Positions 1-43,932 of a DNA stretch of 43,932 bases are shown here, piece after piece. Under the pieces are notes generated by a model, which saw nothing but the letters and a program-made list of their open reading frames with translations, was not told where the DNA came from and did no database searches. Position numbers and translations under genes: made by a program. Origin of the DNA: a virus; IMG/VR virus record IMGVR_UViG_3300046656_000535, positions 1 to 43,932 of that record; one strand, given 5' to 3'. Each line of letters opens with the position of its first letter. The first letter of the stretch is position 1.

Positions 1-916
1 CGACGACGAGCGACGCGGCGCGCTTGCCGTCCCAGCACTTCACGTCCGTGCAGGTCGCGTTCTCGACCGCGCTCGCCTCGCCGGGCTCGACGCCGAAGAG
101 CGCCGGCCGGGCGCACGACGTCTTCGGGCACTTGAGGCAGGAGCCGGCCGAGCGCTGCAGCTTCTCGTCGTCGAGCTTCCAGGTCGCGAGGCGCAGCGGG
201 CGCAGGTAGGCGCGCAGCTCGGCGCGGACCTCGTCGACGCTCGTGAGCGAGCTCTCGCCCCAGCCGCGGCGGACCCACTCGTTCTTCGGTTCCTTCCCGT
301 CGAACTCGAACCGCTCGAGCAGGAAGGCGTCCTGGCTGCGCGCGTCGACGAGCGCGAGCTCCTCGAGCCACGCCGGCGGCCAGAGCTTCAAGGGGCCGTC
401 CTTGATCGCGCGTCGCGCGAGCGGCGAGAGCTGCGCCAGGTTCTCGCGGCGCGCGACCCAGAAGACGGACCGCCCGAGTCCCTTCGCGACCTGCTCCTGC
501 GTCGCCTGCTCGCGCAGCGCGCCGACGATCGCGGCCTCCTCGAGCGGGTCCAAGTCCTTCCGGTCGGCGTTCTCGGCGAGCAGCACGACGCCGGCGGCCG
601 CGGTCCCCTTGAAGAGCAGCGCCGGCACGCGGAGCCACGCGAGCTCGCGCACCGCGGCGAGGCGCCTGTGGCCGGCAAGCACGTCGAACCGGCCGCCCCC
701 CTTCGGCCGCACGACGATCGGCTGCAGCAGGCCGAGCTCGCGGATCGACTCGACCAGCACGGGGTCGGGCCGCGATCGCGACGCCGGGTTCAGCGGGCTC
801 GCGTCGAGCTGCGCGAGCTCGACGTGCTCGACCGCGCTCGGCAGCGCGACCGGCGGCCCCTCGAGCTCGGCGACGGCCGCCCCCGCGGCCTTCGCTCCTT
901 CGTTTCGTCGCTCCAC
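1..916 (-). CDS. ParB/Spo0J-family protein, N-terminal part (continues at 43932)
   Basis: This is a ParB-family DNA-binding protein; here are its first 305 codons. The start is the GTG at 916-914, with AAGGAG eight bases upstream. Residues about 30-115 form the ParB N-terminal (CTPase/nuclease-like) domain, including the G-H-R-R box near residue 82. A helix-turn-helix region follows at about 139-165. Near residues 265-305 lies a cysteine cluster (CxxC, then C-x3-C-W) typical of one ParB subgroup. The frame is open through base 1 and continues in phase at 43932, ending at 43118, about 576 aa in total. It heads a minus-strand operon. No ParA was recognised, so classical plasmid partition is not supported; gene regulation or DNA condensation are alternatives. 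The family call is strong, the role is unknown. Confidence 0.9.
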   Translation of the reverse strand, partial: MERRNEGAKAAGAAVAELEGPPVALPSAVEHVELAQLDASPLNPASRSRPDPVLVESIRELGLLQPIVVRPKGGGRFDVLAGHRRLAAVRELAWLRVPALLFKGTAAAGVVLLAENADRKDLDPLEEAAIVGALREQATQEQVAKGLGRSVFWVARRENLAQLSPLARRAIKDGPLKLWPPAWLEELALVDARSQDAFLLERFEFDGKEPKNEWVRRGWGESSLTSVDEVRAELRAYLRPLRLATWKLDDEKLQRSAGSCLKCPKTSCARPALFGVEPGEASAVENATCTDVKCWDGKRAASLVV

Positions 917-971
917 GGCGTCAGCTCCTTACGATGTCCTTCGGGTCGGGCGCGGCCGGCGGTCGCGCTCA

Positions 972-990
972 GGTTTCACATTAGAAAACC
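972..990. promoter_or_regulatory. Operator-like dyad, copy 1
   Basis: The 19-bp imperfect palindrome GGTTTCACATTAGAAAACC lies in the 139-bp gap between the divergent ParB-like gene and the gp48-fusion gene. It is AT-rich against a very GC-rich background. Two related sites occur at 15872-15890 and 16692-16710, each upstream of a minus-strand gene and in the same orientation. Read on the minus strand it contains TCTAAT, which could serve as a -10 element for the ParB operon. Operator or promoter function is inference. Confidence 0.45.
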
Positions 991-1055
991 CCGGACGGAG
1001 GGCAAGCGGTCCCCGCGCCGGGGCGCGCGCCCCGAGGGGGGGGCGGGAGGACTGC

Positions 1056-4013
1056 ATGGGCGCCGTCATCACGCGGACCCGCCAGGCGCCGGCGCTCGCC
1101 GCCTCCGCGGCCTTCCCGGGCACGACCGTGGCGCTCTCCGGCCAGGACTCGTGGAAGGTCGACAACGTCACGCCCGACTGCGCGCTGCAGGCCGCGGCGA
1201 TGTTTTGGGACTGGGGGGACGGCGCCGTCGGCTTCGGCTTCCGGGCCTCGCACATTTACCCGGCGCCGGGCACCTACCTGCCGGTCCTCACGATCCGCTG
1301 GAAGGACGGCACGACCTCGAGCGCCGCCTACTCGCTCGTCGTCGGGCCCGCGCCGACGTTCGCCGAGTTCAAGAAGTTCGTGAACTACGCGACCGGGAAC
1401 GACGCGAACGACGGGCACGACGACGCGCACGCCTACAAGACGTTCGAGCGCGCGGCCGCGGCCTGGAACTCCTACCGCGGCGGCGGCTCGACCGTGAAGC
1501 CGGTCGGCGTGATCGCGGTCAAGGCCGGCGACCCGTTCACGTACGACGCGCTCAACTCGACCGACGGCTTCGGCAACCCGCACGACGCGACCGTCAGCTT
1601 CGGGCCGCTGCTCGTCACGACGTACGGCGCCGGCGGCCGCGCGGAGTTCGTCGCGACGGCCGGCGCGAGCAGCGCCGACGGCTTCCGGCTCTCGCAGGGC
1701 GGCCACGACCACCCGTTCGAGGAGTTCCCCGGCGACCCGTACTTCAACCCGAACGCCTACAACAACTTCGTCCTGTGGGACGGGATCAACTTCACGTTCA
1801 CGAAGCGGAACCAGGACGTCGACACCTGGAACGTGCTCGGGTTCGACCACGTCGCCACCGAGCTCCGCAACTCGAACGTCGTGAAGGCCGGGCTCGGGCT
1901 CTCGGCCGGCGGCGGCGGGCCGCCGCACGGTTCCTGCGTCTTCAACGTCACCGCCGACCAGCCGTGGCGCAACGGCCTCTTCTGGTCGTGCGCCGAGTCG
2001 ACGCTCGACACGGTCACGATTTCCGGCGCGGGCTCGCTCCCGGACCGCGACTGCGCGCTCTACAGCTCGGCCGGCCTCGACCACTGCAGCGCGCGCAACG
2101 TCACGCTGATCCACGGCTCGCCGGGCCTGCCGGTCTACGGCTTCAAGACGACCGGCTGCAACAAGCTCTGGGTCGAGAACCTCGAGACGCACGACGTCCG
2201 CACGGCGTTCGACATCGGCGGCAACAACGACCCTCCGGAGAACCACGAGGAGACGCACGACCTAGTCATCGACGGGATGCGCGCCTACGGGACGACCGAC
2301 GTCGGACTCTGGCCGGACTACCTGCGCCGCGTGAGCGTCCGGAACGCGCAGTTCTACGGCGGCTGCAGCTTCGCGGCGATCGTCATCGGCTCGTACAACG
2401 CGACGCAATACATCGACGGCTTCGAGGTCCTGAACTCGACGTTCTCGCAGATCCTCGGCGCCGGCGTCTTCTTCGGCCGCGGGCTCCTCGGCGACGGCGA
2501 CACCTGGTCGCGCAACCTCCGGGTCCAGAGCTGCATCTTCACCAAGCCGTTCGGCGCCCAGGGGGTCGATCACAACTTCTTCGAGGTCAGCGCCGGGACG
2601 GGGCTCGCCAACACGACGCTCGGCGGGAACCACTACTTCCGGACCGGCGACGACCTCGACTCCGCGCACTTCGCGTCGACGCCGGGCGGGGAAATCTCGT
2701 TCCGCACCTGGCGTGACAGCTTCGCGACCGACCCCGGATCGGACTTCGGCGACCCGCTCTTCACCGACGAGCTCGGCCTCGACCTGTCGCTCGCGAGCGG
2801 CTCGCCATGCATCGACACCGGCCTCGTCACCGGGATCGACCTCGACGCCGTGCGCCGCGCGCGGCCGCAGGGGCCCGGCTGGGACAAGGGCGCGCTCGAG
2901 GCCGACGACTCGGGCGACGGCTTCTTCGGCAGCGGCGAGCTCGGCGCGGCCGGCACGACGCTCGACGCGGCGGGCCTCGAACAGCTCGAGGGCTCGGGCG
3001 AGTTCGCAGCGCCGGCGCCGGCGCTCGAGGGCGAGGGCTCCGGCGGGTTCGTAGGAACGGGCGAGTTCACCGCCCCCGGAATCGAGCTCGACGCTCGCGG
3101 CGGAATCCCTTTCTCCGGCGGCGGCGGCGCGGGGGTCCTCGCGTCGCCACCGGAGCTGGACGGCTCTGGCGAGCTCTCGTTTCTCGGATCCGCGCCCGAC
3201 CTCCCGGCCCCCGTCCCTGAGATCGAGGGCGACGGCGGCTTCCCCTTCGCCGGCGGCGGCGACGCGCTGCTCGCGCCGTGTGCGACGCTCGAGGGCTTCG
3301 GCGGCCTGCCGATCTTCGGCTCGGGCGAGTTCCTGGCGCCGTGCGCGACGCTCGCCGGCCACGGCGACGCGAAGCTCGTCGAGCCTCCCGTCGACCCCGG
3401 CGCGCCGATCCTCGGCGAGGACCTGGTCGAGCGCGTCGCGACCGCTCTCGCCGACCTCTTCCCGCCCGGACTGCTCTACAAGCCGGTCGCGAGCGGGCAC
3501 CTCTACCAGCTCCGACTCGCGCTCGCGGACGAGGCCGTCGAGCTGCGCGAGCGCGCGCGCTACCTGCTCGACGTCGAGCTCGACCCGCGCCGGACGCTCG
3601 AGCTCCTGCCGGACTGGGAGCGCTGGTACGGCCTGCCCGACCCCGCGCTCGCCTCGCTCGGGCCGCAGACGGTCGCGCAGCGGCGCGCCGCGCTGCTCGC
3701 GAAGATCCGCGCCGTCGGCGGCCAGTCGCCGGCCTACTTCGTCACGGTCGCGGCGACGATCGGCTTCACGATCGAGATCGAGGAGTTCGACCGCACCAAG
3801 GTCGGCGACAAGGTCGGCTCCCCGATCCTCGTCGGCGACTGGGAGTTCGTGTGGAAGGTGCACGCGCCGCGCTCGACGATCCGGCACGCGCGCGCCGGCG
3901 CGAGCTTCGCCGGCGACCGGATCGGCGAGTGGGGGAACGCTCCCCTCGAGGCGCTGCTCGCCGAGCTCAAGCCGGCGCACACCATCCTGCTCTTCGCGTA
4001 CGATCTAGACTGA
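1056..4013 (+). CDS. PKD / beta-helix tail protein fused to Mu gp48-like (DUF2313) baseplate domain
   Basis: A 985-aa virion protein. The start is the ATG with GGGAGG just upstream; frames further upstream are shadow of the ParB gene. Residues ~20-97 are PKD-like (WDWGDG, then a HxYxxPGTY strand). Residues ~108-610 begin with a GNDANDG motif and read as a right-handed beta-helix of the pectate-lyase type, Asn/Gly-rich. Residues ~621-780 are glycine/proline-rich repeats of the form GxGEFxAPxxxLxG. Residues ~785-985 match the Mu gp48/DUF2313 baseplate family: LLPDWERWYGLPDP, QRRAALLAKIRAVGGQSPAY and the end LKPAHTILLFAY. gp48 normally follows gp47 directly, but here it sits about 11 kb further round the circle. 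The extension is probably a tailspike or adhesin displayed on the baseplate; enzymatic activity is unproven. Confidence 0.85.
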   Translation: MGAVITRTRQAPALAASAAFPGTTVALSGQDSWKVDNVTPDCALQAAAMFWDWGDGAVGFGFRASHIYPAPGTYLPVLTIRWKDGTTSSAAYSLVVGPAPTFAEFKKFVNYATGNDANDGHDDAHAYKTFERAAAAWNSYRGGGSTVKPVGVIAVKAGDPFTYDALNSTDGFGNPHDATVSFGPLLVTTYGAGGRAEFVATAGASSADGFRLSQGGHDHPFEEFPGDPYFNPNAYNNFVLWDGINFTFTKRNQDVDTWNVLGFDHVATELRNSNVVKAGLGLSAGGGGPPHGSCVFNVTADQPWRNGLFWSCAESTLDTVTISGAGSLPDRDCALYSSAGLDHCSARNVTLIHGSPGLPVYGFKTTGCNKLWVENLETHDVRTAFDIGGNNDPPENHEETHDLVIDGMRAYGTTDVGLWPDYLRRVSVRNAQFYGGCSFAAIVIGSYNATQYIDGFEVLNSTFSQILGAGVFFGRGLLGDGDTWSRNLRVQSCIFTKPFGAQGVDHNFFEVSAGTGLANTTLGGNHYFRTGDDLDSAHFASTPGGEISFRTWRDSFATDPGSDFGDPLFTDELGLDLSLASGSPCIDTGLVTGIDLDAVRRARPQGPGWDKGALEADDSGDGFFGSGELGAAGTTLDAAGLEQLEGSGEFAAPAPALEGEGSGGFVGTGEFTAPGIELDARGGIPFSGGGGAGVLASPPELDGSGELSFLGSAPDLPAPVPEIEGDGGFPFAGGGDALLAPCATLEGFGGLPIFGSGEFLAPCATLAGHGDAKLVEPPVDPGAPILGEDLVERVATALADLFPPGLLYKPVASGHLYQLRLALADEAVELRERARYLLDVELDPRRTLELLPDWERWYGLPDPALASLGPQTVAQRRAALLAKIRAVGGQSPAYFVTVAATIGFTIEIEEFDRTKVGDKVGSPILVGDWEFVWKVHAPRSTIRHARAGASFAGDRIGEWGNAPLEALLAELKPAHTILLFAYDLD

Positions 4014-7368: not shown

Positions 7369-7980
7369 TCAAGCCTCGAGCAGGACGCCGGCGCGCAGGA
7401 AGCCGTGCCAGCCGGGCACCTGGATCGACCCCCCTCCGGCGCTGCAGGTCGCGGCCGGGTCCGTCCCCTTCCCGACCGTCACGTTCGGCGGCTCGCCGAC
7501 GCGGACCCAGCAGCGGTGGGCGGCGTCGTCCTTCCGCGTGCAGTTCGACGCGCGCGAGTCGACGACCCAGTCGCGGCCGCCGGGCAGTCGGACGACGAGC
7601 GTCCGGCCGTCGGGACCGCGCGCGTAGTCGGCCATCCACGGCGCGAACCACATCGCTCCGGCCGGGGCCTGGCGCAGCTCGAGCTCGAGGTCGAACGGCC
7701 CCGTCCAGAGCTGCGCGACGAACCGCTGGCGCGGGTCCTGGTCGTCGAACACGTAGGTGCAGCCGTCGCACTTCGTCGGGAACGTGAGGCCGGAGCGCAC
7801 CGCGGCCGCCTCGCCGACGACCATCGAACTCTGCTCGCCGGCGTCGCACTCGCCGACGAACCGCGAGGCGTCGTGGTAGCTGCGGTCGGAGGGGCAGGGC
7901 TGGTCGCCGGCCGAGTACCGGCGCGCGTAGGCGCGGGCGCGGGTCGACGGCTGCAGCAGGAAGCAGGAGACGTTCGGCAC
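7369..7980 (-). CDS. Conserved phage protein, unknown function
   Basis: A 203-aa protein with an ATG and GAGGAG upstream. It contains the signatures DRSYHDASRF, CDGCTYVFDDQDPRQRF, PPGGRDW-like strands, VDSRASNC, AAHRCWVRVGEPPNVTVGKG and a final GSIQVPGWHGFLRAGV. I recognise this pattern from proteins of actinobacterial and other phages, but no function is assigned to that family as far as I know. Cysteine and histidine pairs suggest metal binding. It follows the 125-aa gene at 8005 with a 24-bp gap, so the two are probably co-transcribed. Confidence 0.75.
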   Translation of the reverse strand: MPNVSCFLLQPSTRARAYARRYSAGDQPCPSDRSYHDASRFVGECDAGEQSSMVVGEAAAVRSGLTFPTKCDGCTYVFDDQDPRQRFVAQLWTGPFDLELELRQAPAGAMWFAPWMADYARGPDGRTLVVRLPGGRDWVVDSRASNCTRKDDAAHRCWVRVGEPPNVTVGKGTDPAATCSAGGGSIQVPGWHGFLRAGVLLEA

Positions 7981-8870: not shown

Positions 8871-9080
8871 TCACCAGAGCTGGCGGCTCGATTCGTCGAG
8901 CGCCGCCTCGAAGAAGAGCAGCCGGCCATCGGAGCCGGTCGTGAACCGGCACTCGCCGCGCTCGACCATTCCGGCGAGCGAGGCCAGCAGCGAGCGCTTA
9001 TCACGCGCCTCGCGCAGCCGGCGGAGCCGCTCGCGTCGGAGCTTGCGCCGCAGCTCGAGCGCGCGGTCGCGGACCCTCAC
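8871..9080 (-). CDS. Hypothetical basic protein (69 aa)
   Basis: A small arginine-rich protein whose GTG overlaps the stop of the upstream ParB-domain gene (GTGA), implying coupled translation. The N-terminal half is strongly helical and basic (LRRKLRRERLRRLREARDK). The C-terminal half looks beta-rich (GECRFTTGSDGRLLFFEAA). No family is recognised. It could bind nucleic acid or act with the ParB-domain protein. It ends one base away from the convergent stop of the spanin candidate. Confidence 0.6.
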   Translation of the reverse strand: MRVRDRALELRRKLRRERLRRLREARDKRSLLASLAGMVERGECRFTTGSDGRLLFFEAALDESSRQLW

Positions 9081-9709
9081 GAAGGCCGCCGGCTCTTGCC
9101 CGCGTTTGCGTCGAGCGCCTTCGCGAGCGACGCCGAGATCGGATGGTGGCAGACGGGACAGCGCGGCCGACCGTCTTCGGAAGGCGGAAGGGACGGCTCG
9201 GGCGACGGCCGCTCCTTCGGCGTCGCGGTCGCGCTCGCCTCGAGCTCGTCGAGCCCGTTCGCCCCGGCCTCGAGCGCGCGGAGCTCCGCGGCCGTGAACC
9301 CGAGGCCGTCGAGCAGCTCGGGGTCGGTCGTCGTCAGACCCTCGACGAGCTGGCGCAGCTTGTCGTCGTCGAACTCCCCGCCGGTCCGGTTCAGGGTCAC
9401 GTTCAGGACGCGCTCGCGCGCCGCGTCGAGGTCGACGATCGAGACGGGCGTCGTCTTCACGCCGTAACGCGCGAGCAGGTCGAGGCGCTGGTGGCCGCCG
9501 ACGACGGTCTTCGTGCGCCGGTTCCACACGATCGGCTGCACCAGGCCGAAGGCGAGCAGGGACTTCTCGAGCTGGGCCTGGTCGTGGGACGAGATCCGGC
9601 GCGGGTTCCACGCTGCCTTCTGGCCGAGCAGCTCGGCGACGCGCATCCGTTGAATCGGGACGGCCGGGATCGACGTCCCGTCGGTCGCCGGCTCGGCGTT
9701 CTTCGGCAC
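9077..9709 (-). CDS. ParB N-terminal-domain protein with C-terminal zinc ribbon
   Basis: A 210-aa protein, GTG start with GAGGAG upstream. Residues ~20-125 are a ParB/Srx-type domain: AWNPRRIS, SLLAFGLVQPIVWN, then VVGGHQRLDLL. This resembles the N-terminal module of phage ParB-methyltransferase fusions, including the LLDGLGFTAAELRAL segment that normally precedes the methylase. Here no methylase follows. The chain continues through a Pro/Ser-rich linker to a CPVCHH motif near residue 186, which may be half of a zinc site. It differs from the ParB gene at the window junction and lacks its HTH region. Possible roles are DNA binding or nicking; neither is proven. Confidence 0.8.
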   Translation of the reverse strand: MPKNAEPATDGTSIPAVPIQRMRVAELLGQKAAWNPRRISSHDQAQLEKSLLAFGLVQPIVWNRRTKTVVGGHQRLDLLARYGVKTTPVSIVDLDAARERVLNVTLNRTGGEFDDDKLRQLVEGLTTTDPELLDGLGFTAAELRALEAGANGLDELEASATATPKERPSPEPSLPPSEDGRPRCPVCHHPISASLAKALDANAGKSRRPS

Positions 9710-11053: not shown

Positions 11054-11539
11054 TCATTCGCCCAAGAGCTTCGGGACCTTGCCGTCGCGCACGATCCGGC
11101 AGACCTCGCCGCCGAACTCCTGCCCGACGGTCGACCCGCCGACGACGACGTCGGCGAGGAACTCCTTCTCGATCGTCGTGATGCCGGTCGCGACCGCCTC
11201 GAGCTTCGCCTTCACGACGAGCACGAGCGACCGCCACCGGCGCTTCTCTTCGTCCTCGCGCGCCGCCTCGCGCTGCAGCGCCGTGCGGATCCTCCCGGCC
11301 GGGGACTTCGCGAACTCCTCGAGGCCCGGCATCGGGAGGTCGACCCGGATCGGCAGGCGCTTCAAGGTGAAGCCGAGCTGGAAGATTCGGACCGTCACGT
11401 CGCGCCGCGCGGTCTCGCGCCAGATCGCGACGTCCTTCCAGGCGTACGCGAACGCCTCGGCGCCGGCACGCTTGAGCAGGACCTCGAGCTCGGCCTTCGA
11501 TCGGTCGACCGAGACGCTCGTCCGTTCCGCGTAGCTCAC
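11054..11539 (-). CDS. Conserved phage protein, unknown function (161 aa)
   Basis: A GTG start overlaps the stop of the upstream gene (GTGA). The protein begins SYAERTSVSVDRSKAELEVL and continues with a RDVTVRIFQLGF strand and a helix, RSLVLVVKAKLEAVATGI, followed by FLADVVV. I recognise this pattern as a widespread phage early-region protein of unknown function, but I cannot name a characterised member. There are no membrane segments. It sits in the early-type operon between genes of unknown function. Confidence 0.75.
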   Translation of the reverse strand: MSYAERTSVSVDRSKAELEVLLKRAGAEAFAYAWKDVAIWRETARRDVTVRIFQLGFTLKRLPIRVDLPMPGLEEFAKSPAGRIRTALQREAAREDEEKRRWRSLVLVVKAKLEAVATGITTIEKEFLADVVVGGSTVGQEFGGEVCRIVRDGKVPKLLGE

Positions 11540-12114
11540 GGCCGCCCCTCGCCGGCGGCGAGTGCGCGCCAGTCGACGCGCTCCGGCTGCACGGCGCCGC
11601 GCGCGTAGTCGAGGAGCCGTTCGAGCAGGCCGACCTCAACCTGGCAGGCGCTCTGGTGCGCGGCGAGCGTCGCGGCGATGTCGCGCCGGCTGCGCTCCAC
11701 TTCCGAGGGCACGAAACGGAACCGCTTCTGCCACTCGCGCCGGGCCGTCTCGACCTGGCCGAGCGAGGCGTGCTCGACGTCGACCCAGCGCTCGCCGGTC
11801 GACCGCGTCGCTCTCCCCGTCTCGAGGTCGGGAAGGAAGGACCGCTCGCCAGTCGGCACGACCAGGAAGGCGCGCCAGAGCGCGTTCCGGGCCGGCGACA
11901 CCGAGTCCTTCAGGGCCTTCTCCTGGCCGGGCAGCGCGCGCACGAGCCGCAGGAGCTCGCGGTCGGTCAGACCGTCCTTCCCGGCCGAGAGCAGCAGCAC
12001 GCGCACGCGGTCGCGCATCCGCTCGCCGCGGCCGCTCTCCTCCTCGAGCTCGACGGCCTCGATCGACGTCTCGCGCAGCTCGTGAACGGCGTGGTGTCGG
12101 GGGTCGTCTTTCAC
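11536..12114 (-). CDS. Hypothetical protein, basic/helical (192 aa)
   Basis: The preferred start is the GTG at 12114-12112, because a GGAG lies six bases upstream. An in-frame ATG at 12192 would overlap the upstream gene and has no ribosome-binding site. The protein has charged helices throughout (DRVRVLLLSAGKDGLTDRE, SEVERSRRDIAATLAAHQ). A segment around GKDGLTDRELLRLV resembles a winged-helix or HTH helix pair, but this is weak. The start codon and ribosome-binding site lie inside the repeat array at 12109-12178, which could regulate its translation or transcription. No family is recognised. Confidence 0.6.
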   Translation of the reverse strand: MKDDPRHHAVHELRETSIEAVELEEESGRGERMRDRVRVLLLSAGKDGLTDRELLRLVRALPGQEKALKDSVSPARNALWRAFLVVPTGERSFLPDLETGRATRSTGERWVDVEHASLGQVETARREWQKRFRFVPSEVERSRRDIAATLAAHQSACQVEVGLLERLLDYARGAVQPERVDWRALAAGEGRP

Positions 12115-12178
12115 CTGTAACTCCAAGAGTGTTTCACCTGTTAGGGCGTCCTTTTCACTTCCAGCGCAAGGTGAATCG
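12109..12178. repeat. Four-box TTCACCTG/GGTGAATC array, copy A
   Basis: On the plus strand the boxes are TTCACCTG at 12110, TTCACCTG at 12133, TTCACTT at 12154 and GTGAATC at 12171. Spacings are 23, 21 and 17 bp. The 32 bases 12109-12140 match 27 of 32 in copy B at 42658-42689, and the box order is the same. The array overlaps the end of one minus-strand gene and the start of the next. It uses the locally rare codons TTA and AAA, suggesting selection on DNA or RNA sequence rather than on protein. Confidence 0.65.
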
Positions 12179-12394
12179 GAGCGGCTCCTCATCGCCGAGG
12201 CCGGAGCGTTCGATCACGCGGACCCAGGCGTCCTGCAGGCCGCGCACCTGGCCGCGGCCGTAGTCGGTCGGCGAGCGATAGACGGTCACGCCGAGGAGCT
12301 GCGCCTCGTGGTTCAGCAGTTTCGCGACGCGCAGCAGCTCGGCCCGCCTCGAGACGGGCCGCCGGTTCCAGAGCCAGCGCAGCAGCGCGTTCAC
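12155..12394 (-). CDS. Hypothetical protein (79 aa)
   Basis: The GTG at 12394 overlaps the previous stop (GTGA). The protein starts with an aromatic/basic helix (ALLRWLWNRRPVSRRAELLR), followed by a beta-type VTVYRSPTDYGRGQ and a C-terminal RFTLRWK. No membrane segment is certain. Its stop codon lies in repeat array A. No family is recognised. It lies in an operon of similarly small proteins. Confidence 0.6.
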   Translation of the reverse strand: MNALLRWLWNRRPVSRRAELLRVAKLLNHEAQLLGVTVYRSPTDYGRGQVRGLQDAWVRVIERSGLGDEEPLRFTLRWK

Positions 12395-12675
12395 CGGCGG
12401 CCCCTCCGTCGCCGTCCGGCCGGACCGAGCAGGCCGCGCCGCGTCACGAGCTCGCGCGCATCCCCGAACCACCGGGTCGGCAGCTCGGCCACGGTCCACT
12501 GCTCGACGACGCGCCGGACCTTGCGGCGGCGCAGCCGGCGCTCGAGCGCGAGGGCCTCGCGGGCGACGCGCAGCAGCGCGACGAACACGAGCAGCACGAG
12601 CAGCGCGGCGGCGAGCTCGAGGAGCAGCGGCAGGCCGGCGGCGAGCGCCTGGTCGACCTCGCTCTCGGCCGTCAC
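12391..12675 (-). CDS. Small single-pass membrane protein (94 aa)
   Basis: A GTG start overlaps the upstream stop (GTGA). One strong hydrophobic helix lies at residues ~15-37 (LPLLLELAAALLVLLVFVALL). It is followed by a long basic cytoplasmic-type region (ERRLRRRKVRRVVEQW) and a C-terminal RRRRGRR. By the positive-inside rule the N-terminus faces out. A holin-like or membrane-tethering role is conceivable, but it sits in an early-type operon and not in a lysis cassette. No family is recognised. Confidence 0.6.
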   Translation of the reverse strand: MTAESEVDQALAAGLPLLLELAAALLVLLVFVALLRVAREALALERRLRRRKVRRVVEQWTVAELPTRWFGDARELVTRRGLLGPAGRRRRGRR

Positions 12676-14815: not shown

Positions 14816-15739
14816 TCACGCGCCCTGCAGCGAGATCCGGTGCGGCGCGAACTTGAGGCGAGTGCCGGCCGGCCACGCGGCGCCGGCCGGCACCCGACAG
14901 TCGGGCGGAGAGGTCAGGAAGAGGCCGACGTCGACGTCGTTGCCGACGCCGCAGGTCGCCTGCAGGAGCACCTCGCCGCTCTTCGAGTAGACGCGCAGGA
15001 AGGTCGGGGTCCCGGCCGCCTCGAGGACGAAGACCCGGATCGACGAGATGAGCTGGAGGCCGTCGGGGGAGAGGTCGATCCCACCGGGAAGGTGCAGGTC
15101 CTCGACCTCGACGAGCTGCTCCCACGCCGGGTCCGTCCCCCGGATGACGCGCGCCGGGTCGGGCACGACGCCGGCGTAGACGACGAGCGAAGCTCCTGCG
15201 ACCTGGGCCGGGGTGAAGACGGCGCGCAATCCGCAGGCGTCGGAGTCGGGGCGCACTGCCTCGATCTCGACCGGCGCGTCGCCGAAGCTCCGGACGCGGT
15301 TCTCCCGGAACGACGGGCCGGCCGACGGGACGACGAGTCGGGTCGGCTCGGGCGGAACGTGGTCGCGGATCAGCTTCCAGCGGTCGTCCTCGCGCTCGGG
15401 CCGCGGCGGCGGCTCGCCGGGCCGACCGAAGTCCTCCGGCGTCGGGAGCTGGCCGAAGGGGATCGGCCGGAGCTCCTGCATCGTCGCGGCCAGCACGACC
15501 GACAGCACCGCGAACCCCTCCGGAACGCCGAACTCGCCCCCCCTCGAGACGTGCGTCACGCGCAGCCGGATCCACTCGCCGGTCCGCTCCTGGAGCTTCG
15601 GGTCCCAGCCGTACTCGAGCAGCTCGTCGCCGGCCGCGAACGCCGGCGAGCGGTCGTCCTTCCGGAACTCGAACCGCTTCAAGCCGAGGGCGAGGAGGCG
15701 CAACTGCTCGGGGTGCACCTTCAGGACGTGCTGGAACAT
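14816..15739 (-). CDS. DUF3850 (ASCH-like) domain protein
   Basis: A 307-aa protein starting at the ATG at 15739, with GAGAGGAG upstream; longer readings enter the control region. Residues 1-82 match DUF3850, an ASCH/PUA-like fold: HVLKVHPEQLRLLALGLKRF, then EFRKDDR, ELLEYGWDP, LRVTHVSRGGEFG and a final VLSV. ASCH-like domains are linked to RNA binding or modified nucleotides. The remaining ~220 residues are beta-rich and Pro-containing, with no family recognised. It is the first gene of the minus-strand operon, downstream of a possible promoter/operator at 15872-15890. Confidence 0.75.
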   Translation of the reverse strand: MFQHVLKVHPEQLRLLALGLKRFEFRKDDRSPAFAAGDELLEYGWDPKLQERTGEWIRLRVTHVSRGGEFGVPEGFAVLSVVLAATMQELRPIPFGQLPTPEDFGRPGEPPPRPEREDDRWKLIRDHVPPEPTRLVVPSAGPSFRENRVRSFGDAPVEIEAVRPDSDACGLRAVFTPAQVAGASLVVYAGVVPDPARVIRGTDPAWEQLVEVEDLHLPGGIDLSPDGLQLISSIRVFVLEAAGTPTFLRVYSKSGEVLLQATCGVGNDVDVGLFLTSPPDCRVPAGAAWPAGTRLKFAPHRISLQGA

Positions 15740-15890: not shown

Positions 15891-16037
15891 GACCGCGGAG
15901 GATTGCAACGGGAAACCCGGAGCCAGGACCGGGCACGGGGCCGCCCGGGCACGCTTCATTCCCTTCTCTGCTTCTCCTCTTCATGCTTAGGTATGGACAC
16001 TTCGCGGTCACTTCTCGACCGTTTAGGAGCGTTCAAG

Positions 16038-16481
16038 GTGCCGAAGAAGAGGGCGGCGCGCGACCCGGGCGAGGACGACGGCGTCGGAGCGGCGCTGGTC
16101 AGCGAGCTCGCGACGCTCGACCTCGACGAGCCGGAACCGCCGGCCGTCGCGGTCGCGTGCGCGCGCGAGCTGCTCGCGCTGCACGACGGCGCGCCGCCGG
16201 TCGTGTTCGACTCGGCGACCATGCGGCTCGTGCGCGGCCGCGTGATGCTCGAGGCCGCGCGGCTCGGACGGCAGGGCGCGCTCGCGGCCGTCGACGTCGG
16301 CGAGCGGCCCGAGCTGCGCGCCGGCTACGTGCTCGCGTGGGACGCGCTGGCGCCGCTGCTCGTCTCGCGGGACGGCTTCGCGCGCGTGCTCGAGCGGCTC
16401 GAGCGGGCGGCCGGCGAGGGCGTCGGGCCGCTGCCGCGGCCGGGCCGCCTCGAGGCGCCGGGCGAGCTCGGCGAACCGTAG
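16038..16481 (+). CDS. Hypothetical protein (147 aa)
   Basis: The preferred start is the GTG at 16038, with AGGAG eight bases upstream. An in-frame ATG at 15993 would add 15 residues but has only a weak ribosome-binding site. The protein begins with a basic KKRAARD patch. It is then helical and Ala/Leu-rich, with VRGRVMLEAARLGRQGALAA and LLVSRDGFARVLERLERA. No family is recognised. It precedes the terminase genes. Its last 157 bp lie antisense to the ribbon-helix-helix candidate, so one of the two C-termini may be non-functional. Confidence 0.55.
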   Translation: MPKKRAARDPGEDDGVGAALVSELATLDLDEPEPPAVAVACARELLALHDGAPPVVFDSATMRLVRGRVMLEAARLGRQGALAAVDVGERPELRAGYVLAWDALAPLLVSRDGFARVLERLERAAGEGVGPLPRPGRLEAPGELGEP

Positions 16482-24343: not shown

Positions 24344-24784
24344 GTGGGCAAGTTCAACGAGAACCAGATCGTCGATGCGCTGGACGTCCTGGTCGATTCC
24401 TGCGACCTCGGCAGCTCGGCCGCATCGGCGCACTTGAAGATGTACGACGCGACGGGCGGCGTGCCGGCGCGCGTCACCGATGCGATCACGACCCAGGTCC
24501 TCCTCGCCGACCTCGCGATGGCCAACCCGGCCTTCGACGACGCCGCGCTCGCCACGCCGGGCGCGACCGCCGCGGCCGACACGATCACCGACGACTCCGA
24601 CGCGAACGCGACCGGGACCGCGGCCTTCTTCCGGATCGTCGACCGCAACGGCGTCGCGAGGATCCAGGGCACGATCAGCGATACCGACGGCTCGGGAGAG
24701 CTCAAGCTCAACTCGGTCGCGCTCGTGCAGCACGCGCGCGTGCAGGTCAGCTCGCTCGTCGCTCGGATGCCGGAGTCGGTCTAA
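24344..24784 (+). CDS. Virion decoration-like protein 1 (146 aa)
   Basis: A GTG start with GGGGAGG upstream. The protein is beta-rich with Ala/Thr/Asp/Ser content (AAADTITDDSDANATGTAAF). It contains a FRIVDRNGVARIQGTISDTDGSGEL strand set that parallels the HYRIYDSAGTTCHEQGTV segment of the next gene. The two look like diverged paralogs. A role as a head fibre, decoration or neck-associated protein is plausible from context. There is no catalytic motif. Confidence 0.65.
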   Translation: MGKFNENQIVDALDVLVDSCDLGSSAASAHLKMYDATGGVPARVTDAITTQVLLADLAMANPAFDDAALATPGATAAADTITDDSDANATGTAAFFRIVDRNGVARIQGTISDTDGSGELKLNSVALVQHARVQVSSLVARMPESV

Positions 24785-25509: not shown

Positions 25510-28059
25510 ATGGCTGCCGTCCGCGCAGGGATCGCCGGAGGCGGCACGTCCGGGACGACCGACCGCACGGCGACCTTCACGCCGGCCGTCGGGGACTACG
25601 CGGTCGTCGCCGTCGTCGTCAGCGCGAACGCGAACACGACCCCGACCTGCAGCGACAACAACGGCGGCACCTACACGCGCGTCCGCAACGGGCTCTTCAA
25701 CGGCTCGACGGACATGGGCTCGCTCTTCGTCCGCGACCAGCTCTTCACGAACACGACGTCCACGACGGTCACGGTCGCGACGGGTTCCAACACGAGCGGC
25801 GAGGTCGCCGGCGCGCTCGTCTCCGGCATGGCGAAGGCCGGGAACGCCGGCGTCCGGCAGAGCGCGCGCGTCGTGAACCAGGCGTCCGGCACCGCGCCGG
25901 CGCCCGTCTTCGCCTCGAACGCGCTCGCCACGAACCTCGTCCTCGGGTTCGTCTGTAACGACACGAACCCGGCGACCATGTCGGCGCCGATCAACTTCAC
26001 CGAGCAGGCCGACCTCGGGCAGGCGACCCCGCCGGTCGGCCTCGAGATCGTCAGCAACAACACGTCCTTCACGGGCACGACGGTCACGTGGAGCAGCAAC
26101 TCCGCGTCGAACTACTGCGCCTTCACCGTCGAGCTCGATGCCTCCGACGAGGGCACGAGCTCGGCCACGCTCGGCGACGTCACGGGCTCGGCCGCCGGCA
26201 CGATCGACGACTCGGGCGCGTCGAGCGCGACGCTGGGAGCGACGACGGGTTCCGCGACCGCGACCGTGGCGACCGCCGGCGCCTCGAGCGCGACGCTCGG
26301 GGCGGTCACGGGTTCGGCCGCTGCGGCGGTCGCGGTCGCCGGCGCCTCGAGCGCGACCCTCGGCGCGACGACCGGCAGCGCCGCCGGCACCGTCGCCGTC
26401 GCGGGCGCGAGCTCGGGGACGCTCGGCGCCGTCTCCGGAGCGTCGGCCGGAACGGTCGGCGAGGGCGGCACCTCGGGCTCGGCGCTCGACCCAGTCACCG
26501 GGTCCGCGACGGGGACGGTCGAGGTCCGAGGGGGGTCGGACGTCGCGCTCGACCCGACGAGCGGCGCGGCCGCCGGCGGCGTCGCGATCGCCGGCGCGTC
26601 GAGCCGGACGCTCGACGACGTCGCCGGCGAGAGCGCGGGCGACGTCGTCGAACCGATCGTCGGCGCCGGCGAGTTCCTGGCGCCGGTCCCCGAGCTGCTC
26701 GGCTCGGACCTGGTCACGATCGTCGCGACGGGCGAGGTCCTCGCCCCCGGCGCGGTCGCCGGCGACCCCCCGCCCGGGGAGGCGGGCGCGAGGGTCGAGG
26801 GCGTCGGCCGCGTCGAGCTGCCGGAGCGCGGGTCGTCGCGCTGGCGACGGCTCCGCGTGCGCCGGGCGGCCTGGCGGCGGCTGCGGTCGAGCTCGCCGTT
26901 CCACGGGCGCGTCTTCCTCGACCGGGCCGAGGCGCTGCGCCACGACGCGCGCGGCGGCGAGCTGCCGGCGCTGCTCCTGCACTCGCTCGGCGAGCAGGTC
27001 GAGCGGTTCGGCATGGCGCCGAAGGAGTATCGGCGCACGCTCCGGCTCGGCGTCGAGGTCCTGGCGCCGCGCTCGCCGGCGCGCGCCGGGCTCGCGCGCT
27101 CGGGCGACCGGACGGCCGACGTCGAGCCGGCGGTCCTCGCGCGGCTCGTGCAGGTCGTCCGGCAGGCCTTCATGCGCGAGCCGACGCTCGGCGGCGAGGT
27201 CGACTCGGTCCGGCACGCCCGCACGCGCAAAAGCTACGTGGACGAAGGGGAGGTCGCGCTCGGCGCCGCGCTGGTCGAGTTCGACGTCGTCTACTACACC
27301 GAGCACCGCGAGCGCGAGGACCTCCTGGCCGGGCCGCTCACGACGATCGCGACGACGCAACGGCTCGGCGAGGCCGACCCGGCGCGGGACCTCCTCGAGC
27401 TGCAGGCGACGCTGGAAGAGGCGGCGCGCGACGGGACGGAACCGATCGATGCCGTGCTCGGCCGCCCGATGGGTCCGGCGGAAGCGATCACGCGGCTCGT
27501 GCGGCGGCGCCTGGTCGACCGCACGAACGCCGGCAAGCGCGTGCGCCTCGGCGCGAGCGAACCCGTCGACGTCTACCGCGACGGGCTCGGGCTGCCGCTG
27601 CTCGTGCTCTGGGACGCGGCCGAGGACGCCGAGCCGTTCGGCGAGGCGCCGCGCGTCGACCTGGTCACGATGCGGCTCTCGGTCCTGATCTACTCGCCGC
27701 GCCGGCACGCCCGCGCCGGCGTCGCGCGCGCCGGCGACCGCGTCGCGGCCGCCGAGGCCGACCAGCTCGACGTGCTCGAGCACCAAGTGGAGGCGGCGCT
27801 GCTCTCGGAACCGACGCTCGGCGGGCTCGTCTCCGACGTCGAGGTCGCCGGCGTCCGCTTCGCGCACGTCGTCGCCGAAACCGGCCTCGCGGTCGCGCGC
27901 GTCGACTTCGACGTCCCCTACCTGCAGGAGTACCTCGAGGACGCGCTCGCGCGCGCCGGCGAGTTCCTGCTCGCCGCCGTCGAGTGGAAGCTCCCGAAGG
28001 AAACGCCCGCGCCGCCGCGCGTGATCGCGGCCGACGACATCGACGTTAGAGGCGGTTAG
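25510..28059 (+). CDS. Display-domain protein fused to two tail-terminator-like domains
   Basis: A single 849-aa frame. Residues ~1-212 are a beta-rich Ig/jelly-roll-like domain (TCSDNNGGTYTRVRNG start, TVTWSSNSASNYCAFTVEL end). Residues ~213-380 are tandem units of the type GASSATLGAVTGSAAGTV. At ~380-440 comes the motif GAGEFLAPVPELLG, which also occurs in the gp48 fusion. A very basic linker, RWRRLRVRRAAWRRLR, follows at ~445-460. Two related domains then follow, ~490-600 and ~690-835. Each has a (R/T)LRLGVEVL or MRLSVLIYS strand, then EPTLGG(E/L)V, then an F-D-V-x-Y strand, as in tail-terminator proteins. Its position just before DUF2635 and sheath fits a terminator. The tandem duplication and the long display head are unusual. 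Confidence 0.7.
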   Translation: MAAVRAGIAGGGTSGTTDRTATFTPAVGDYAVVAVVVSANANTTPTCSDNNGGTYTRVRNGLFNGSTDMGSLFVRDQLFTNTTSTTVTVATGSNTSGEVAGALVSGMAKAGNAGVRQSARVVNQASGTAPAPVFASNALATNLVLGFVCNDTNPATMSAPINFTEQADLGQATPPVGLEIVSNNTSFTGTTVTWSSNSASNYCAFTVELDASDEGTSSATLGDVTGSAAGTIDDSGASSATLGATTGSATATVATAGASSATLGAVTGSAAAAVAVAGASSATLGATTGSAAGTVAVAGASSGTLGAVSGASAGTVGEGGTSGSALDPVTGSATGTVEVRGGSDVALDPTSGAAAGGVAIAGASSRTLDDVAGESAGDVVEPIVGAGEFLAPVPELLGSDLVTIVATGEVLAPGAVAGDPPPGEAGARVEGVGRVELPERGSSRWRRLRVRRAAWRRLRSSSPFHGRVFLDRAEALRHDARGGELPALLLHSLGEQVERFGMAPKEYRRTLRLGVEVLAPRSPARAGLARSGDRTADVEPAVLARLVQVVRQAFMREPTLGGEVDSVRHARTRKSYVDEGEVALGAALVEFDVVYYTEHREREDLLAGPLTTIATTQRLGEADPARDLLELQATLEEAARDGTEPIDAVLGRPMGPAEAITRLVRRRLVDRTNAGKRVRLGASEPVDVYRDGLGLPLLVLWDAAEDAEPFGEAPRVDLVTMRLSVLIYSPRRHARAGVARAGDRVAAAEADQLDVLEHQVEAALLSEPTLGGLVSDVEVAGVRFAHVVAETGLAVARVDFDVPYLQEYLEDALARAGEFLLAAVEWKLPKETPAPPRVIAADDIDVRGG

Positions 28060-41767: not shown

Positions 41768-42096
41768 CGTCTAGCGACGCGGAGGTCCCCACTTTGGAAC
41801 CAGCGCCGACCCTCCCGCACTCCGGCCGCGCCGCGACGCGCAGCGACGTCGTCCGCACCGCCGCGCTCTGCACGGTCCTGATCGTCGCGAGCAACTTGGC
41901 GAACTTGCCGGCCGCCTACCGGCGCGCGGCCGCGAGCGAGGACCTGCTCACGGCCTTCCAGAAGTTCGCGAAGGACTCGACCGAGTGGCGCTCGCAGCAC
42001 CACGCCGTGCTCGAGCAGCTCGCCCGCGACGCCGACCGGCAGTTCGCGGAGCTCCACGCCGAGCTCGAGGTCATCAAGGCGCACGTCGCGCGCTAG
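41764..42096 (+). CDS. Small membrane protein, partner of previous gene (110 aa)
   Basis: The ATG overlaps the previous TGA. A Pro-rich N-terminus is followed by a membrane segment at ~29-48 (VVRTAALCTVLIVASNLANL) and a charged helical C-terminus (QFAELHAELEVIKAHVAR). The two coupled single-pass proteins resemble each other in layout and may work together, for example as a holin/antiholin-like pair. This is inference. The last 23 bp overlap the convergent uracil-glycosylase-like gene. Confidence 0.5.
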   Translation: MTSSDAEVPTLEPAPTLPHSGRAATRSDVVRTAALCTVLIVASNLANLPAAYRRAAASEDLLTAFQKFAKDSTEWRSQHHAVLEQLARDADRQFAELHAELEVIKAHVAR

Positions 42097-42640
42097 GCGG
42101 CACGAGGCCGACCAGGAAGCTCCGCGCGGCGTCGACGTTCGCGCGCTCGTTCCAGAAGTGGGACGTCGCGGACGGATGCGGGAAGACGTAGCCGAGCGCC
42201 GTCCACGTCGAGCTCGGCGCCGCCGACCCGTCCGCGGCCGGCAGCGCGAGGACGTGCCAGCCGAACCACTGCGCCTCGACCGCGATGCCGAAGGCGCGCG
42301 CGACGCGACGGCCGAGGAGCACGAGCTTCACGACGCCGGCCGGGGAGTGCGCCGCGCAGAAGGCGAGCAGCTCGGCCGCGGCCGCGACGCCGGCCTCGTG
42401 CGGGAACTGCGACCCGCCCCCGATCGCGGCGCCCGGCCACTCGTCGAGCAGGTTCACGCGGCCGAAGTTCCGCGCGTACTGGCCGGGGAACCAGAGCCCG
42501 GCGAGCTCGGCCAAGCGCCTCCCGACGAACCCCGTCAGCGGCTTCTCGGGGTCCCCGTGCTGGCCGGGAGCTTCCCCGACCAGCACGGGATGGCCGAGGC
42601 GCAGGTGCGCCTCGAGGAAGAACAGCGGGCCGGACCTCAC
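42074..42640 (-). CDS. Uracil-DNA-glycosylase superfamily protein
   Basis: A 188-aa protein starting at a GTG overlapping the upstream TGA. VLVGEAPGQHGDPEKPLTGF at ~20-37 is the active-site loop pattern of family 4/5-like UDGs. NLLDEWP and HPSATSHFWN (~153-162) correspond to the second and third conserved motifs. Other features, including LVLLGRRVARAF, fit the fold. It could remove uracil from phage DNA or be a divergent, non-catalytic member. It is the last gene of the ParB operon. Confidence 0.7.
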   Translation of the reverse strand: MRSGPLFFLEAHLRLGHPVLVGEAPGQHGDPEKPLTGFVGRRLAELAGLWFPGQYARNFGRVNLLDEWPGAAIGGGSQFPHEAGVAAAAELLAFCAAHSPAGVVKLVLLGRRVARAFGIAVEAQWFGWHVLALPAADGSAAPSSTWTALGYVFPHPSATSHFWNERANVDAARSFLVGLVPPSARRAP

Positions 42641-43020
42641 GACGCGGGCGCCTCCGGTTTCACCTGTAACTCCGCGACCGATTCACCTGCACTCGCAGGT
42701 GATTCACCTGGCTCCGGGGGGTGAATCGCCTGCCGGCGCTCGAGCTCGAGCGGCGCTCCGGTCGCCGGATCGCGGAGCGCCGCGGCGAGCTGCGGCGCCT
42801 GCCGGCCGAGGAGCCCGGCGACGAGGTCGACCTCGCCCAGCAGGTCCTCGAGGCGGTCGACCAGGAAGGCGACGAACGCGATCCGGGCGGCGAGCTCGGG
42901 CGTCCGGTTCCGGACCCAGGCCGGCGGCGAGGGCGCGTCCACGGTCGCGCCGGCGGCCGCCAGGAGCGCTCGGCACTCCCGGACGGCCCGGAGGGGGGAG
43001 CGGGCGTCGGAGGGCCTCAC
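42637..43020 (-). CDS. Hypothetical protein (127 aa)
   Basis: The GTG at 43020 overlaps the stop of the small membrane peptide gene (GTGA). The body is helical (AVRECRALLAAAGATV, ELAARIAFVAFLVDRLEDLL, LAAALRDPATGAPLELERR). The last ~28 residues are Pro/Glu/Ser-rich and are encoded by repeat array B, so their composition may reflect selection on the DNA. No family is recognised. Its own stop overlaps the UDG-like GTG. Confidence 0.6.
   Translation of the reverse strand: MRPSDARSPLRAVRECRALLAAAGATVDAPSPPAWVRNRTPELAARIAFVAFLVDRLEDLLGEVDLVAGLLGRQAPQLAAALRDPATGAPLELERRQAIHPPEPGESPASAGESVAELQVKPEAPAS
42658..42728. repeat. Four-box TTCACCTG/GGTGAATC array, copy B
   Basis: Plus-strand boxes are TTCACCTG at 42659, 42682 and 42703, then GTGAATC at 42721, with spacings of 23, 21 and 18 bp. 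Copy A at 12109-12178 has the same order and spacings 23, 21 and 17. The third box sits in a 15-bp palindrome, CAGGTGATTCACCTG, at 42696-42710. The array lies in the 3' end of the 127-aa gene, 18 bp upstream of the UDG-like start. Confidence 0.65.
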
Positions 43021-43121
43021 GAGAGCACGAGGGCCAGCGCGGCCCCCAGCACGGCGACGAACACGACGACGAGCGCGCCGCCGAGGTCGCGCTCGAGGCG
43101 GCCGGGCTGCGGCGACCTCAC
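43017..43121 (-). CDS. 34-aa single-pass membrane peptide
   Basis: The GTG overlaps the ParB TGA and the stop overlaps the next GTG; overlap at both ends supports translation. After a basic RSPQPGRLERDLGG, the C-terminal 20 residues are hydrophobic (ALVVVFVAVLGAALALVLS). The peptide may be inserted into the inner membrane. No function is recognised. It is too small for a classical holin. Confidence 0.5.
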   Translation of the reverse strand: MRSPQPGRLERDLGGALVVVFVAVLGAALALVLS

Positions 43122-43932
43122 TTGCCACCGTCCTTCCAGCTCTTCGGCTCGGGGAGCTCCGTCTTCATCGCGGCGAGCTGGGCGGCGACGTCGAGCCCGA
43201 CGAGGTCGCCGAGCCACGCGAGCTGCGCCAGGAGCTCGCCGGCGCCGTCGCGCGCGTACTCGGCGTGCTGCTCGAGGGAGGCGCCGAGCTCCTCGCGCAG
43301 CTCGAGCCAGGCGTCCGCGATCGCGGTCCCGAGCTTCGGCCACGCGCCGGACTTCTTCTTCGGCGGGCCTCCGCGCCGGCCGGTCGGCGCCGGCAGGGAC
43401 CGTGCGAGCTCGTGCTCGGACGCGCGGAACATCACGAGCAGGAAGGCGCCGGCCTCGGTCGGCTTCACGTCGCCGGGGCTCCGCTTCAGGACGTCCTTCC
43501 ACTCGCTCTCGAGCACCGCGGCCGCGAGCCGGCCGAGGACCTTTCGGCAGCGCCGCTGGTGCAGCTCGGCGCGCTTCACCTTGAGGGACTTCGGCGCGCC
43601 GGCGTTCCCGTTCGTGCCGACGCTCTGGCTCTCGGCCTTCTCGCGCACCCAGAGCACCTCGCCGGCGTGCGCGCCGTCCGTCACGAGCGCCGGGCGTCCC
43701 TTCGCCTTCGACCCCGGTTCCCACTGCCACTGCTCGACGACGCGCGCGCCGCCGAGCAGGTCCTTTACGTCGAGCTCGTCTACGTCGAGCTCGTCGCCGC
43801 GCTGGTGGAAGGAATCGGGCGTCTCGGACCCGTCGGAGCGCGTCGGCAGCTTGCCGTGCACCAGGAGCAGCTTCGCGCCGTGGGGGGCGGCCGGGGGCGT
43901 GTTGGGGGCCACGAGCCGCGCCGCGCGCGGTG
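43118..43932 (-). CDS. ParB/Spo0J-family protein, C-terminal part (continues from base 1)
   Basis: This is the C-terminal ~270 residues of the ParB-like protein that starts at 916. Read across the junction, base 1 plus 43932-43931 form one Ala codon, and the frame runs on to the TGA at 43118-43120. A GTG at 43912 could look like an independent start, but there is no good ribosome-binding site before it and the in-frame continuation is unambiguous. The segment is mostly charged and helical, with a K/G-rich patch (GGPPKKKSGAWPK) near its middle, and has no domain I recognise. Its stop codon overlaps the GTG of the next small gene (GTGA), implying translational coupling. Confidence 0.85.
   Translation of the reverse strand, partial: PRAARLVAPNTPPAAPHGAKLLLVHGKLPTRSDGSETPDSFHQRGDELDVDELDVKDLLGGARVVEQWQWEPGSKAKGRPALVTDGAHAGEVLWVREKAESQSVGTNGNAGAPKSLKVKRAELHQRRCRKVLGRLAAAVLESEWKDVLKRSPGDVKPTEAGAFLLVMFRASEHELARSLPAPTGRRGGPPKKKSGAWPKLGTAIADAWLELREELGASLEQHAEYARDGAGELLAQLAWLGDLVGLDVAAQLAAMKTELPEPKSWKDGGK

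Follow-up and report, generated by a model that had tools for sequence, protein, structure and literature searches.

Virus record IMGVR_UViG_3300046656_000535 of IMG/VR (43,932 nt, positions 1-43,932; this whole stretch of analysed DNA is referred to below as the window) carries two arrays of four short boxes, separated by ~13 kb, which raises two questions: are these arrays more than a chance resemblance, and which protein could act on them? The window has a GC content of 73% and contains genes typical for a contractile-tailed phage, i.e., those of a GpA-type terminase, portal, head protease, sheath, tape measure and baseplate. The ParB reading frame on the minus strand, running from a GTG at 916 to base 1, stays open from 43932 to 43118. 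Since it reads open over both record ends, the circularity assumed in an earlier reading made from the letters alone (hereafter the sequence-only reading) is supported, and the genome is considered circular or circularly permuted. The first ~700 bases of the plus-strand ORF 243-4013, which the ParB gene overlaps, were regarded as spurious. A tRNA-Ala call at 26538-26621 sits within 63-bp coding repeats and is probably false.

The arrays and the genes surrounding them are as follows:

42657..42727, minus strand: array 1 (boxes read directly, weight-matrix scan, cluster test, GC3 dip), with boxes GTTTCACCTG (42657-42666), GATTCACCTG (42680-42689), GATTCACCTG (42701-42710) and inverted GATTCACCCC (42718-42727), and an additional inverted box AATCACCTG (42696-42704)
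12108..12177, minus strand: array 2 (boxes read directly, weight-matrix scan, GC3 dip), with boxes CTTTCACCTG (12108-12117), GTTTCACCTG (12131-12140), TTTTCACTTC (12152-12161) and inverted GATTCACCTT (12168-12177)
42637..43020, minus strand: 127-aa gene of unknown function (frame, GC3 pattern)
42074..42640, minus strand: UDG-like gene (VGEAPG motif; phrog_12275)
12155..12499, minus strand: gene upstream of array 2, with its TGA inside box 3
11536..12114, minus strand: 192-aa gene behind array 2 (weak winged-helix profile match)

The boxes share the consensus G[A/T]TTCACCTG. In array 1 the core TTCACCTG is present at 42659(+), 42682(+) and 42703(+), followed by inverted GGTGAATC at 42720, and in array 2 it is present at 12110(+) and 12133(+), followed by TTCACTTC at 12154(+) and inverted GGTGAATC at 12170; box 4 is thus inverted in both. 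The start-to-start spacing is 23, 21 and then 17 (array 1) or 16 bp (array 2), and the common box order and spacing noticed in the sequence-only reading were found again, apart from the last value, given there as 17 or 18. Read on the minus strand, each array consists of CGATTCACC, a ~10-base spacer, a GTGAA box, CAGGTGAA and then GGAGTTACAGGTGAAA. The last of these, the box-1 stretch, is identical at 16 of 16 positions, and the previously reported identity of 27 of 32 bases over boxes 1 and 2 was reproduced, while the flanks and spacers of the two arrays differ.

Array 1 encodes the low-complexity tail (AIHPPEPGESPASAGESVAELQVKPEAPAS) of the 127-aa gene product, and its box 1 ends ~17 bp before the start of the UDG-like gene at 42640, which distantly matches an LKO4 gene annotated as uracil-DNA glycosylase. 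Array 2 overlaps the 192-aa gene, whose start is most likely the GTG at 12114 inside box 1, with GGAG located six bases before it. The placement of both arrays within minus-strand operons, at or just upstream of a gene start, therefore holds in this more specific form: a coding tail in the case of array 1 and an overlapped start in the case of array 2. A scan for sigma-70 promoters was empty near the arrays.

Several tests showed that the arrays exceed chance expectation. Clusters of three TTCACC/GGTGAA motifs within 70 bp occur twice in the window, and in none of 300 dinucleotide shuffles. The ungapped 32-bp array pair scores 41.1 bits, whereas 40 shuffles gave no more than 38.6; the ten repeats with a higher score all lie within or between similar coding regions. 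The third TTCAC lies at an equal offset in both arrays (p=3e-4), as does GGTGAATC to within 1 bp (p=1.7e-5). In a weight-matrix scan of the window, seven of the eight boxes outscored every other site. The observation of twin arrays was thus confirmed, their motif clustering nowhere else in the window, and the motif scan suggested earlier, a search for equal arrays at random places, revealed none besides these two.

The second line of evidence is the codon usage. The GC3 background, calculated for 9,352 codons of the called genes, is 96.7%, and in a scan of all called genes with 23-codon windows, which ignores the box motif, the two lowest values were found at array 2 (39%) and array 1 (48%). 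The frame across array 1 stays open through the low-complexity tail, with the codon bias lost. The codons TTA and AAA appear only 2 and 4 times, respectively, in 10,512 codons, which bears out their rarity as stated in the sequence-only reading; its view that both arrays encode an ELQVK peptide applies less well to array 2, where this stretch is largely untranslated and intergenic, the upstream gene stopping in box 3 and the next one most likely starting in box 1. A structured RNA element was also considered and rejected: no fold shared by both arrays was found, a strong hairpin being present in array 1 only, and an Rfam search of the arrays gave no match. Because the ELQVK stretch of array 2 is mostly noncoding, a common RNA fold is absent and GC3 drops over both arrays, the constraint seems to act on the DNA letters, apparently kept by selection, and not on protein or RNA. 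Of the two levels at which a single factor had been proposed to act, DNA is consequently retained and mRNA is not. In a very GC-rich genome, a loss of third-position bias can thus reveal such candidate sites without comparative genomes.

Comparison with known motifs pointed to parS. All eight boxes match the bacterial parS half-site GTTTCAC at 6 or 7 of 7 positions, and the arrays are the only places in the window with four half-sites within 75 bp, a density reached in 1 of 200 shuffles. Exact GTTTCAC occurs three times in the window, i.e., in array 1, in array 2 and in front of the ParB gene. The full palindrome TGTTTCACGTGAAACA has no site within 3 mismatches in the window, which contains half-sites only. 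With 12/16, box 1 of array 1 and box 1 of array 2 come closest to the parS 16-mer in the window; at least two sites at 12/16 or better arose in 5 of 200 shuffles. The 11/16 tier comprises a site upstream of ParB, box 2 of array 2 and one site at 24351 in a structural gene. Of 840 palindromes obtained by permuting the letters, none but parS itself has its top two matches in the arrays, and among 420 permuted half-sites GTTTCAC alone yields four in each array. Since parS came into consideration only once TTTCAC had caught the eye, and as one of five motif families, 1/840 is no clean p-value; the agreement with parS is for this reason rated as strong evidence short of proof. With the motifs of Noc, KorB and F sopC the arrays do not stand out, and P1 box A matches them only via the common TTTCAC.

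These results directed attention to the ParB-type proteins encoded by the phage and to the site in front of the ParB gene:

1..916, minus strand: 5' part of the ParB gene (GTG at 916 behind AAGGAG; ParB_N and HTH_ParB)
43118..43932, minus strand: 3' part of the ParB gene (open frame across the junction; alone no family match)
972..987, plus strand: third parS-like site, GGTTTCACATTAGAAA (11/16), located 56 bp before the ParB start
9077..9709, minus strand: second ParB_N-type protein (phrog_620/498 type)

The ParB gene encodes a 576-aa protein, which matches TIGR00180 with 71.7 bits (cut-off 58.45), ParB_N with 45 bits and HTH_ParB at its cut-off, as well as Noc/Spo0J structures of the PDB (E 1e-17). 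It heads the minus-strand run holding array 1, which lies downstream, in the second gene further on. A ParA was not found in the record with PF13614, and the 576-aa protein contains no ParA-binding motif. The residues of Caulobacter ParB that contact DNA have been listed (PMC7383237), and alignment of the recognition helix showed residues equivalent to Q162, G170 and S172 in the phage protein, but V in place of R173 and R in place of N178; because of these two replacements, a target shifted from parS is plausible for the phage protein. As for the candidate binders named in the sequence-only reading, the half-parS boxes and the position of an HTH-bearing ParB upstream of array 1 favour this ParB. 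The ParB_N-type protein at 9077-9709 gave no HTH_ParB match, and no ribbon-helix-helix family was detected by Pfam, so that a factor of the latter type is not supported. The window also contains a gene with a DUF3850 (PUA-like) domain (14816-15739), and phage ParB-fold fusions to DUF3850 have been described (PMC12704722).

The 972..987 site is single, weaker than the arrays and situated inside an AT-rich island (918-986) that precedes the ParB gene. The island contains GTTTCAC and a near-palindrome GGTTTCACATTAGAAAACC, and is a candidate promoter/operator. The other strongly AT-rich stretch of the window, 15944-16050 (54% AT at most), is apparently intergenic, and the motif TTGCAA-17-CACAAT on the minus strand near it marks a likely promoter region.

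We tentatively prefer, granting it somewhat less than an even chance, a reading in which an orphan ParB of the phage uses the arrays as half-parS sites, either for loading or as operators. Each array would be a cis-acting DNA element of four half-parS boxes, with box 1 as a degenerate full parS. The phage's own Noc/Spo0J-like 576-aa ParB, working without a ParA partner, would bind the arrays and, in analogy to KorB, Noc and P1 ParB, load there, probably by forming a nucleotide-dependent clamp; for KorB, a function as CTP clamp in the silencing of genes has been described (PMC11790492). Bound ParB may then influence the minus-strand transcription units by repression, road-block or local compaction, with the UDG-like gene and the winged-helix-like gene affected at their starts, and the weaker single site before the ParB gene would perhaps provide feedback on its own gene. 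A wider proposal, which we hold to be doubtful, is that a ParA-less ParB controls genes from half-parS arrays, placed in a coding tail and at a gene start, onto which it loads, or else that the arrays mimic host parS half-sites, drawing host ParB and coupling the phage to the segregation of its host. Orphan proteins of the ParB fold occur widely, phages included (PMC12704722), where they are common; here, one phage offers a short pair of candidate sites along with the protein.

Other explanations have to be weighed against ParB loading. The arrays might be operators of another phage regulator, in the first place the 192-aa winged-helix-like protein, which would regulate itself at array 2, lying over its own translation start, and control the UDG-like gene via array 1. 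Repeated asymmetric boxes combined with an inverted box suit multi-dimer operators, and the protein weakly matches phrog_1123 (E 1.3e-4), a general winged-helix profile that picks out regulators of the Crp, MarR and GntR types in a Thalassospira genome. However, this weak match is accompanied by nothing from Pfam, NCBIfam or PDB and by a structure model with pLDDT 38.6, too poor to use, and the parS half-site likeness would have to be a coincidence, which makes such operators rather unlikely. Lower still is our estimate for iteron-type sites of replication or copy control, where an initiator would bind four boxes approximately two helical turns apart, with one set at the initiator gene and the other elsewhere. 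The first three boxes are indeed 21-23 bp apart and AT-rich for this genome, and array 2, unlike array 1, is AT-rich and adjoins the winged-helix-like gene. A comparable arrangement is present in Bifidobacterium phage Bbif-1, where four CTGTTTGCAC boxes (7592-7700), mostly at 24-bp spacing (33/24/24), lie in a linker region; the gene concerned, of winged-helix replication type, follows parB directly, and the boxes look like an embedded iteron origin. Against iterons speak the presence of two arrays 13 kb apart, the inverted fourth box, the lack of an AT-rich unwinding stretch beside array 1, a cumulative GC skew without a turning point at array 1 or array 2, and the fact that no initiator was recognised.

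A role in translation initiation, similar to that of the SAS/ESAS elements of cluster K mycobacteriophages (PMC3203893), was judged very unlikely. In this scenario GGAGTTACAG would extend the ribosome-binding site, and a protein or RNA would act on the inverted repeat located upstream, with its ~10 bp spacer; the position near gene starts and the GGAG before the GTG of array 2 are in line with it. The window, though, has two copies compared with 11-19 in cluster K, the GTG in box 1 of array 1 would give an 8-codon peptide, the UDG-like gene carries a separate GGAGG of its own, and the SAS consensus GGGATAGGAGCCC has no match within 2 mismatches, in addition to the missing common RNA fold. Least credible of all, and highly improbable, is a non-functional repeat that is mobile or arose by recent duplication: it would account for the near-identity of boxes 1 and 2 at two places, but not for spacers and flanks that diverge while boxes and spacing hold, for the differing gene contexts, or for a codon bias broken most strongly at the arrays.

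Relatives were sought in several collections. Exact and two-box array patterns gave chance-level matches and no array in IMG/VR, blastn of the arrays against phages likewise gave chance-level matches only, and no array-bearing relative was found in IMG/VR and the phage collection. The UDG-like, 192-aa and 43118-43912 proteins have no relatives in IMG/VR. Two close relatives by terminase there (94% and 86% nucleotide identity) cover 15.4-22.2 kb of the window only, short of both arrays, and the terminase shares at most 42% with GTDB genomes. The phrog_17260 gene, located behind the 192-aa gene, has relatives at 80 loci, none of them with an array; its plasmid matches include one of 74% in Miltoncostaea oceani and otherwise only shorter ones. 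A relative of ParB (31%) was detected in one Hymenobacter plasmid, and the phages VarioGold, Aval and Bbif-1, with distant ParB proteins, contain no such GTTTCAC cluster.

Parts of the array layout are known from parS arrays, iterons and start-associated sequences, and the earlier statement that no described element has this layout was too strong. Chromosomal ParB-parS systems share with the arrays the half-site GTTTCAC, matched by all boxes at 6-7/7, and a ParB with ParB_N and HTH, but here the half-sites form arrays without a full palindrome, no ParA was found, and the ParB is longer, with a divergent recognition helix. Mycobacteriophage RedRock likewise has two loci of repeated motifs, parS-L and parS-R, in a phage genome with ParB (PMC7157519); they contain eight direct 8-bp copies each and are accompanied by ParA, whereas the arrays have four boxes, 16-23 bp apart and the last one inverted, and no ParA. 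Cluster A stoperators (20-30 asymmetric sites of 13-14 bp with an HTH repressor) were rejected, as the window has no other full-strength boxes and HTH_3 is absent. The SAS/ESAS elements also combine a box over the ribosome-binding site with an upstream inverted repeat, but differ in sequence and in copy number, only two copies of box 1 being present in the window. The lambda origin, with its four 18-bp iterons inside gene O (PMC3349717), resembles the arrays in having four boxes at approximately two-turn spacing, and the iterons of Myxococcus plasmid pMF1 are dispersed and partly inside genes (PMC3235114); the present case differs from both in its two arrays, the inverted fourth box and the lack of an AT-rich stretch adjoining array 1. 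In the case of KorB and its OB sites in plasmid RK2 (PMC11790492), OB itself is absent here (best 9/13) and no KorA partner was identified, but the likeness lies in the mode of action, with a ParB-family protein and sites acting on transcription, which is known for RK2 and predicted for this phage.
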